64,000 nucleotides of DNA from Zopfochytrium polystomum (taxonomy: Eukaryota; Chytridiomycota; Chytridiomycetes; Chytridiales; Chytridiaceae). A program made the position numbers and the translations under genes. Shown one piece after another: positions 1,651-3,492 of this stretch (its first letter is position 1; each line of letters opens with the position of its first letter). The notes beneath the pieces are model-generated. The model was not told the DNA's origin. It worked only from the letters and a program-made list of their open reading frames with translations, and did no database searches. Location: assembly GCA_025765615.1 (NCBI GenBank), contig JAIVFJ010000069.1:62001-126000 (forward strand), given 5' to 3'.

Positions 1651-1751
1651 ATGTATCGCCACGCGCACGAAAAGACCTCGCAAGACTACATTTCGGAACA
1701 GGTGAGAACTGGGCGCTTGCTAGCGCCTGATGGAAGGATGGAAAGGACTGC

Positions 1752-1822
<71 letters not shown>

Positions 1823-1962
1823 AATGGCGAGAGAGATGGAGCGAGCACACGAACTCGAGAGATGTGATTGGTTTGCAGCAACATATTCAGTACATTGACT
1901 TAAAAGAATTCGTTCGTGTCTTGTCTCCACCACGGCAGATTTTCAAGGCTATCTCGGCCTAA
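1651..1962 (+). CDS. Arginine attenuator peptide (AAP) uORF of CPA1, split by an intron
   Basis: This is a 24-codon uORF in the CPA1 leader. Exon 1 (1651-1701) encodes MYRHAHEKTSQDYISEQ; a GTGAGA donor follows at 1702; exon 2 (1939-1962, after CGGCAG) encodes IFKAISA and TAA. The spliced peptide has the same length as the 24-residue Neurospora AAP. It keeps the core T9-S10-Q11-D12-Y13, including Asp12, which is essential in known AAPs, and has an aromatic Phe at position 19 where Trp is usual. In known fungi the nascent AAP stalls the terminating ribosome when arginine is high, blocking initiation at the CPA1 start and triggering decay. Here the uORF stop lies 108 nt before the CPA1 ATG with no ATG between them in the spliced leader. 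The intron is 237 nt, a multiple of three, with no in-frame stop, so retention gives a 103-codon uORF ending at the same stop. Peptide similarity and exact length are observed; function is inferred. Confidence 0.9.
1754..1819 (+). repeat. (GA)n microsatellite inside the AAP-uORF intron
   Basis: An almost pure GA dinucleotide run of about 65 bp lies in the uORF intron. If the intron is retained the run is read as alternating Arg-Glu. It accounts for the apparent long open frames on both strands here. Confidence 0.9.
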
Positions 1963-2070
1963 ACTTTCGAACGAACGACCTCAGCGCCCTATCCTTTTCT
2001 TCAGCTTATTCTATCAGAGCCTTCATTGTTACCCCAGCCGGGAAAGAGCAAAAAACAAAACTGTATCCAA

Positions 2071-3492
2071 ATGTTCGTCAACTCGGCCGTCAAAAGCTTC
2101 GCCTCGGCCAGCCGCCGTATCGTCCCACATGCCCAGCGCTCGCTTGCAACCATTGCCAAGGACCCCATCCCTTCCTCGTCCAGTCAGTTCCCAAAAAGCA
2201 CCGCCAGCAAATCGCCAGAACCCCCAATTCTTCCGGCAAAGCTCCAACTGGCCACGGGCCACGAATTTAAGGGAATATCTTTCGGTGCCCCCATCACCAA
2301 ACCGGTCGCTGGCGAAGTCGTCTTCACCACCTCCCTTGTAGGTTACCCAGAAAGTATGACCGACCCTTCCTACCGGGGCCAGATCCTCGTTTTCACGCAA
2401 CCGTTGGTCGGCAACTACGGGGTTCCCTCCGAGACCGCCCGCGACTCGTTCGGCCTCCTCCGTCATTTTGAGGCCGAGGGCATTCAGGTGAAGGGCATCG
2501 TTGTCAACGACTACGCAGCCAAATACTCGCACTGGGAGGCGGTCGAGTCGCTCGGAAAATGGTGCGAACGCTATGGTGTCCCAGCCATCAGTGGTGTGGA
2601 CTCCCGTGCAGTCGTGTCGCTCCTTCGCGATCGCGGGTCTACCTTGGGAGAAATTGTCGTTGGCGACGTGGACCCGTCCACGGTTATTCCAGAGGACCCC
2701 AACGCGCGGAATCTTTGCTCTGAAGTGTCCACAAAGCAGAAGCAGGTGTTCAACCCGGCGGGCGACGTCCACGTCGCCCTCGTCGACTGCGGCGTCAAGC
2801 AAAACATCATCCGGTGTCTGGCATCGCAAGGCGCCAAAGTCACCGTCGTGCCGTGGGACCACGACCTCGCCAACGACGCGACCGACTACGACGGCGTCTT
2901 CATCTCGAACGGACCAGGCGACCCGCGCCACCTCGGAAAGACCGTCGAGAGCATCAAAGCGTTCATTGACGTGGATCGAACCCGCGCCGTGCCCACGCCC
3001 ATCTTTGGCATCTGCATGGGCAACCTTGTGCTTGGCATGGCGGCCGGCCTGTCCGTGTACAAGCTGCCCTTTGGAAACCGCGGCCACAACCAGCCGGCCG
3101 TTGACCTCACCACCGGGCGCTGCATCATCACCTCGCAAAATCACGGATACGCGCTCGACGACTCGGCCCTGCCGGACGCTGCCGCAAACTCGGTCGAAGC
3201 ATCGTCGGCGGGACAGAGCGGCAGCGACGGCTCGTGGACGGTGTACTTTAGGAACGCAAACGATCGCTCGAACGAGGGCATCCGGCACAGCGTTCTGCCG
3301 TACTCGTCGGTGCAGTTCCACCCAGAGGCGATGGGTGGGCCGGAGGACTCGGCATACCTGTTCAGCAAGTTTGTGTCTGATGTGCGTGCGTTCAAACGCG
3401 AGCGGAAGCGGGAAGCATTGACAGCAAAGGCTGCATCCCTGCTCGCCAGGCCCACGCTGGCGGCGAGCGCTTCTGCCACCACCAGTTTGTGA
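2071..3492 (+). CDS. CPA1: Carbamoyl-phosphate synthase, arginine-specific, small (glutaminase) subunit
   Basis: This intronless ORF of 473 residues encodes the glutamine amidotransferase subunit that supplies ammonia to the large subunit for carbamoyl phosphate in arginine synthesis. The N-terminus (MFVNSAVKSFASASRRIV) is rich in Arg/Ser and lacks acidic residues, like a mitochondrial presequence. The CPSase small-chain domain follows (about 55-210), then a class I amidotransferase domain with ISNGPGDP, the nucleophile motif GICMGN (Cys315), FGNRGHNQP, ITSQNHGYA and QFHPEA (His417, Glu419). Oddity: the family motif is GxCxGHQ; here Asn and Leu319 replace His and Gln, although Cys-His-Glu is intact. 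The start is the first ATG after the AAP uORF, and upstream in-frame codons contain no ATG. Control by arginine through the uORF is expected. The gene ends 170 bp from the converging helicase gene. Confidence 0.95.
   Translation: MFVNSAVKSFASASRRIVPHAQRSLATIAKDPIPSSSSQFPKSTASKSPEPPILPAKLQLATGHEFKGISFGAPITKPVAGEVVFTTSLVGYPESMTDPSYRGQILVFTQPLVGNYGVPSETARDSFGLLRHFEAEGIQVKGIVVNDYAAKYSHWEAVESLGKWCERYGVPAISGVDSRAVVSLLRDRGSTLGEIVVGDVDPSTVIPEDPNARNLCSEVSTKQKQVFNPAGDVHVALVDCGVKQNIIRCLASQGAKVTVVPWDHDLANDATDYDGVFISNGPGDPRHLGKTVESIKAFIDVDRTRAVPTPIFGICMGNLVLGMAAGLSVYKLPFGNRGHNQPAVDLTTGRCIITSQNHGYALDDSALPDAAANSVEASSAGQSGSDGSWTVYFRNANDRSNEGIRHSVLPYSSVQFHPEAMGGPEDSAYLFSKFVSDVRAFKRERKREALTAKAASLLARPTLAASASATTSL

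Follow-up and report, generated by a model that had tools for sequence, protein, structure and literature searches.

The locus studied here raises the question of whether a short upstream open reading frame (uORF), divided in two by a predicted intron, encodes an arginine attenuator peptide (AAP), and of what the intron does in it. Unless another locus is named, positions refer to the window, that is, to the whole stretch of 64,000 nucleotides that was analysed. The uORF has a first exon at 1651–1701 of the plus strand (51 nt, MYRHAHEKTSQDYISEQ) and a second one at 1939–1962 (24 nt), which encodes IFKAISA and finishes with a TAA codon at 1960–1962. When both are spliced in silico, the joined reading (ATG...CAG | ATT...GCC TAA) gives the 24-residue peptide MYRHAHEKTSQDYISEQ|IFKAISA, in which the core TSQDY occupies residues 9–13 and Asp12 is present. 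On re-reading the sequence, the coordinates, the frame and the peptide of the original prediction were found to be exact, and its placing of TSQDY at 9–13, with Asp12, was borne out in the spliced peptide. The length of 24 residues, which it had equated with that of the classical AAP, was also found, and both of the gene copies described below have 24 codons.

The gene downstream, which had been taken for CPA1, was recognized as such by its domains (CPSase_sm_chain and GATase) at 2071–3489 of the plus strand, where a single uninterrupted ORF encodes 473 aa. The uORF lies in the leader of this carbamoyl-phosphate synthase (CPS) small-subunit gene, 108 nt upstream, and the same holds for its paralog. 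The nearest relatives of CPA1 with a solved structure are mitochondrial carbamoyl-phosphate synthases, and its N-terminus resembles by eye a mitochondrial presequence. A third match to the CPS small chain in the genome (contig C299, locus L005) runs into CPS large-chain-like sequence and, because the small chain continues in this way, L005 is probably the pyrimidine CPS. Since CPA1, unlike L005, stands alone as a small subunit and begins with what looks like a presequence, we infer that it would be the small subunit of the arginine-specific CPS. As regards gene structure, both CPA1 coding sequences are uninterrupted, whereas at least four introns break up the first 689 codons of the L005 CPS. 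In the CPA1 transcripts, an intron can be predicted in the uORF only.

A TATA-like ATAAAAA at 1489–1495 of the plus strand was picked by eye as a putative promoter element, and in the paralog the TATA-like TATAAATA (L004, minus strand, 2634–2627), also chosen by eye, falls near it in the alignment. The ATG of the uORF lies 162 nt from this site in the window and 155 nt from its counterpart in the paralog. In neither copy does another ATG come between the TATA-like site and that of the uORF, and the spliced leader has no further ATG between the uORF and CPA1; in the window, the listing of ATG codons gave none in the 108 nt of the intercistronic leader (1963–2070, plus strand). The base at −3 is T at the uORF ATG of both copies and C at the CPA1 AUG of the window. 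As the CPA1 AUG itself has C at −3, the contrast of a weak uORF start with a strong CPA1 start is not seen in the window.

Residues 8–24 of the peptide align without gaps with the Neurospora crassa AAP (PDB 2xl1), with 8 of these 17 positions identical. The C-terminus had been said to match that of Neurospora residue by residue, which stands as a gapless alignment but not as identity: between IFKAISA and LWRALNA only Ala21 and Ala24 are the same, and the other five residues differ, mostly conservatively. A search of the PDB (177,635 sequences) placed 2xl1 at rank 2 with an E-value of 0.29, which is not significant alone, behind a designed repeat protein (E-value 0.0097) with no stretch passing by itself. 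In Pfam, the sole match at an E-value of 10 or less for either spliced peptide was Leader_CPA1 (PF08252), with an E-value of 0.0023 and 17.7 bits for the window peptide and of 0.07 and 13.0 bits for that of the paralog, both under the gathering cut-off of the family (18.5 bits). The chance of such likeness was estimated by enumerating, on both strands, all ATG-started peptides of 17–40 residues encoded either without interruption or with a single GT-AG intron of 40–400 nt, and by scoring them with BLOSUM62 against residues 8–24 of 2xl1. The window peptide scored 48 and the next best of the 62,806 one- or two-exon candidates in the 64-kb window 22; on the strand of the paralog, its AAP-like peptide scored 43 and the next one 17. 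Dinucleotide shuffling of the leader (1480–2070), repeated 1000 times, gave no score as high as 43, the maximum being 25. No AAP-like peptide was found in 6 kb at L005, where the best score was 12. The likeness of the peptide to AAPs is more than chance.

The resemblance to the classical AAP is nevertheless not complete. The length of about 24 codons, the core (TSQDY in the window and TAQDY in the paralog, with Asp12 in both) and the gene context agree with it, but position 19, which is Trp in the N. crassa AAP, is Phe in the window and Tyr in the paralog, and the Pfam scores stay below the cut-off. Asp12 and Trp19 are reportedly (Spevak, 2010) the two critical residues of the AAP, Trp19 being critical in mutational work, and it is above all the replacement of Trp19 by Phe or Tyr that calls for caution. 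Because Trp19 is absent, the peptide cannot be counted as a confirmed standard AAP; it is probably homologous to the AAP and probably works like it.

The decisive new evidence for an intron-split uORF is the leader of a second CPA1 gene in the same genome. This gene, on contig C72 (locus L004), encodes a protein 76% identical to CPA1 of the window over residues 17–472, and its leader encodes MYRHAYETTAQDYISEQ|IYKGISA followed by a stop codon, again with 24 codons and with an intron after the same codon (17). Its residue 10 is Ala where the window has Ser, and its stop codon is TGA instead of TAA. The absence of a similar peptide in related species would have spoken against the original prediction; in the equivalent comparison, made within one genome, such a peptide is present in the paralogous CPA1 leader. 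A DNA pattern for MYRHA[HY][DE] had exactly two matches in 80 Mb, both in CPA1 leaders, and the reversed control had none. The possibility that L004 is the other haplotype of the window, rather than a paralog, was rejected, as the CPA1 proteins are only 76% identical with a pS of 0.76; moreover, a DNA search with the leader matched only itself. The upstream neighbours of the two CPA1 copies look different by eye, and a 199-aa fragment of a helicase downstream of CPA1 in the window had 19 matches in the genome, none of them on C72. In the window, the frame upstream of CPA1 lies on the minus strand at 1–720, and by its appearance we take it to resemble a BMT5-type 25S rRNA methyltransferase.

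Other candidate loci were discarded. A pattern for the core alone matched two sites, the window uORF and one on C111 (L008), and missed the TAQDY of the paralog; L008 showed by eye neither an AAP end nor CPA1 and was attributed to chance, and the single match of the reversed core-only control indicates that one stray match is to be expected. Leader_CPA1 was also run against the unspliced genome, where it recovered neither of the two CPA1 uORFs and gave one weak match, on C27 (L009). This match reached 16.9 bits, under the cut-off, and no CPA1 leader was seen by eye in the 3-kb locus, so it was also attributed to chance. One of the control genomes likewise gave a Leader_CPA1 match below the cut-off. 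Among viral contigs, three stretches matched a pattern and no relative of CPA1 was confirmed.

The comparison of both copies also indicates how the peptide has evolved. Its coding sequence has 18 differences in 72 nt, 13 of which are at third positions. The Nei-Gojobori method counts 12.5 of the 18 as synonymous (pS 0.87) and 5.5 as non-synonymous (pN 0.095), giving a pN/pS of 0.109 for the peptide versus 0.235 for CPA1. In a neutral simulation with this one pair of sequences (18 random changes, independent of each other, that left the start codon intact and created no stop), only 1 of 20,000 runs altered no more than 5 amino acids. Given the low pN/pS (0.11, with 0.24 for CPA1), the joined peptide is under purifying selection, a result that comes from one pair of copies.

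The predicted intron of the window (1702–1938, plus strand) has 237 nt and follows codon 17 in phase 0, with the borders cag|GTGAGA...CACGGCAG|att. The intron of the paralog (L004, minus strand, 2428–2364) has 65 nt. Both keep GT-AG at a conserved position of homologous genes, with cag|GTGAGA...GGCAG in the window and cag|GTTAGT...CTCAG in the paralog, and since both copies are split at the same place, the intron predates the duplication. Four introns of L005 were placed by eye and checked for continuity of the frame, which gave 689 codons with no stop; their donors are GTCAGT, GTAAGC, GTATTT and GTTAGT. The donors and acceptors of both uORF introns fit these four, and one of them has exactly the donor of the paralog (GTTAGT). 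The four introns checked measure 45–99 nt, less than the 237 nt of the window intron. The intron bodies align poorly between copies, with the exception of short runs such as ATGGAAG near the 5' end and the tract TCCACCAC just before the 3' splice site; because this tract is common to both, the alignment points to a single ancestral 3' acceptor. A GA microsatellite of 62 nt (1756–1817, plus strand) in the window intron is missing from that of the paralog.

Taken together, we consider it highly likely that this is an arginine-responsive AAP uORF in which an ancestral phase-0 intron separates codon 17 from codon 18. The intron would most likely be removed constitutively, and arrest would follow splicing. 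Splicing would join the two exons, so that ribosomes starting at the first AUG would make the 24-residue peptide. At high arginine, the ribosome would be stalled at the stop codon of the uORF by the nascent chain within its exit tunnel, and the stall would keep scanning ribosomes from reaching CPA1, in the manner known from Neurospora arg-2 and yeast CPA1. At low arginine, scanning past the uORF AUG would allow CPA1 to be made. We infer splicing, arginine sensing, stalling and leaky scanning by analogy with those systems. A proposed corollary is that no arrest peptide would come from the unspliced mRNA, since in it the TSQDY core would lie at the wrong distance from the stop codon.

The original prediction had added that assembling the peptide only after splicing would provide a further layer of control. 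Under this alternative, regulated retention of the intron, or use of another acceptor, would switch between an arresting uORF of 24 aa and a non-arresting one of 44 or 103 aa, which we regard as unlikely; that the switch would set the share of CPA1 mRNA responsive to arginine is improbable to the same degree. The candidate acceptor is a second in-frame AG of the plus strand (1877–1878), and splicing to it would yield a uORF of 44 residues that ends at the same stop codon. In fact, the spliced, the 1878-spliced and the unspliced leaders all share one stop codon, and TSQDY adjoins the last seven residues only when the intron is spliced out. The length of the window intron is divisible by three, and the intron has no stop in the frame of the uORF, which is open from 1651 to 1962 within an ORF that spans 1336–1962; only 22 of 2000 dinucleotide shuffles of the intron remain free of stops. 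The uninterrupted CPA1 ORF, which leaves this intron as the sole one predictable in the transcript, would also suit a regulatory role. However, the figure of 22 in 2000 is too low as an estimate of chance, because shuffling breaks up the GA tract, itself stop-free. Moreover, the open frame is not conserved, since the 65 nt of the paralog intron are not a multiple of three and its third codon is an in-frame TAG. As the paralog lacks it, we treat the open frame of the window intron as unexplained and probably fortuitous. The broader claim that processing of an in-frame intron couples the splicing state to metabolite control, and that the intron-split AAP may be ancestral in flagellated fungi, we hold to be doubtful. 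We give splicing as a control layer a low probability. Constitutive removal of an ancestral intron accounts for all the observations, save perhaps the open frame of one copy.

It was also considered whether the intron might be an ordinary 5'-leader intron, kept because it enhances expression or aids mRNA export, and the uORF a constitutive repressor of CPA1 that is blind to arginine, the function of the peptide having been lost with Trp19. The replacement of Trp19 in both copies and the Pfam scores below the cut-off would agree with such a loss, but both residues found at position 19 are aromatic, and Asp12, T-x-Q-D-Y and the length of 24 are kept in both copies. In addition, the amino-acid sequence is conserved (pN/pS 0.109) while the bodies of the introns and the greater part of the leader have diverged, and we therefore find this reading very unlikely. 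A convergent origin of the AAP-like peptide concerns its ancestry only and is compatible with the mechanism proposed above. The AAP-like uORF of Toxoplasma ApiAT1 is possibly convergent according to its authors (PMC8370653, in the part of the text available), and yet gene, position, exact length and gapless alignment all agree here with the fungal AAP, which makes convergence highly improbable. Finally, an unspliced uORF of 103 residues ending in IFKAISA, with the intron retained, can hardly be the functional product in spite of the frame open from 1651 to 1962, as in the paralog this frame stops after two intron codons, splicing alone restores I[FY]K[AG]ISA, and GT and AG stand at the ends of both introns although their bodies have diverged.

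The host genome (an 80-Mb assembly of 761 contigs) was examined as well. It contains an IFT57 domain over the cut-off and 14 matches over the cut-off to chitin synthase N-terminal domains. Five exon pieces on C8 jointly cover, with small gaps, positions 4–1376 of the 1390 of the alpha-aminoadipate reductase profile; none of them alone passes the whole-protein cut-off, and the family also matches weakly in 12 of the 14 prokaryote controls. Flagellated fungus is a sound description of this organism, and the presence in it of an AAP-type uORF with a predicted intron upstream of CPA1 is supported, as regards the host, by IFT57 and the fungal chitin synthase domains. Matches with equal or nearly equal scores were observed for chitin synthase, helicase and adenylation exons on the contig pairs C58/C256, C2/C427 and C2/C444, which suggests that the paired contigs are retained haplotigs or the result of a recent segmental duplication. 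Furthermore, C280 and C234 have tandem adenylation-domain-like matches that resemble genes of the non-ribosomal-peptide-synthetase type.

In fungi, the AAP stalls ribosomes at high arginine, and leaky scanning permits CPA1 synthesis when arginine is low (accessible text of PMC6492140 and PMC11550727); this stalling promotes NMD (PMC11550727, with evidence from Cryptococcus in PMC7049704, both in part). The closest comparison is with the AAP of N. crassa arg-2, with which the peptide has in common the 24 residues, TSQDY at 9–13, Asp12 and the gapless alignment over 8–24, as well as the kind of gene and the position in its leader (for the N. crassa gene, accessible text of PMC11550727). In contrast, Phe or Tyr replaces Trp19 here, no match over residues 1–7 was reported and the gene has two paralogous copies. 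The coding sequence of the uORF is, in addition, split by an intron in this genome. The leader peptide of Saccharomyces cerevisiae CPA1, a uORF on the same gene, is likened by description, and works through leaky scanning and arginine-dependent stalling (PMC6492140 and PMC11550727, in part) and NMD (PMC11550727, in part). The AAP uORF of Cryptococcus CPA1 (CND01050), likewise compared by description, has strong ribosome occupancy, and its mRNA increases 5-fold in the upf1 deletion, according to the available portion of PMC7049704. The uORF of Toxoplasma gondii ApiAT1 is arginine-responsive, peptide-dependent and AAP-like with a critical Asp, but it differs in having 33 residues and in belonging to a transporter gene of an apicomplexan (PMC8370653, in part).

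To our knowledge, the CPA1 uORF of yeast has no intron. A comparison of AAP gene structures is said to have been made by Hood, Spevak and Sachs in 2007. The AAP literature examined, which was available in part, names the AAP in Neurospora, Saccharomyces and Cryptococcus and as conserved "in many fungi" (PMC7049704, PMC11550727, PMC6492140), and its available text names no flagellated fungus with an AAP. The same portions describe no intron-split AAP uORF, the comparative work of 2007 lying outside that scope, and our search for literature on AAPs or uORFs in chytrids or early-diverging fungi found none. AAPs are well known, and what is new with respect to this partly available literature is the flagellated host, the duplication, the aromatic residues at position 19 and the conserved intron.

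The AAP is a textbook example of a metabolite-sensing arrest peptide. If the peptide is homologous to it, the presence of two copies under selection in a flagellated fungus would move this device back towards the root of the Fungi. Positions 19 (Phe, Tyr) and 10 (Ala) offer natural variants for structure-function work, and the conserved intron would allow a splicing switch of an arrest peptide to be tested.
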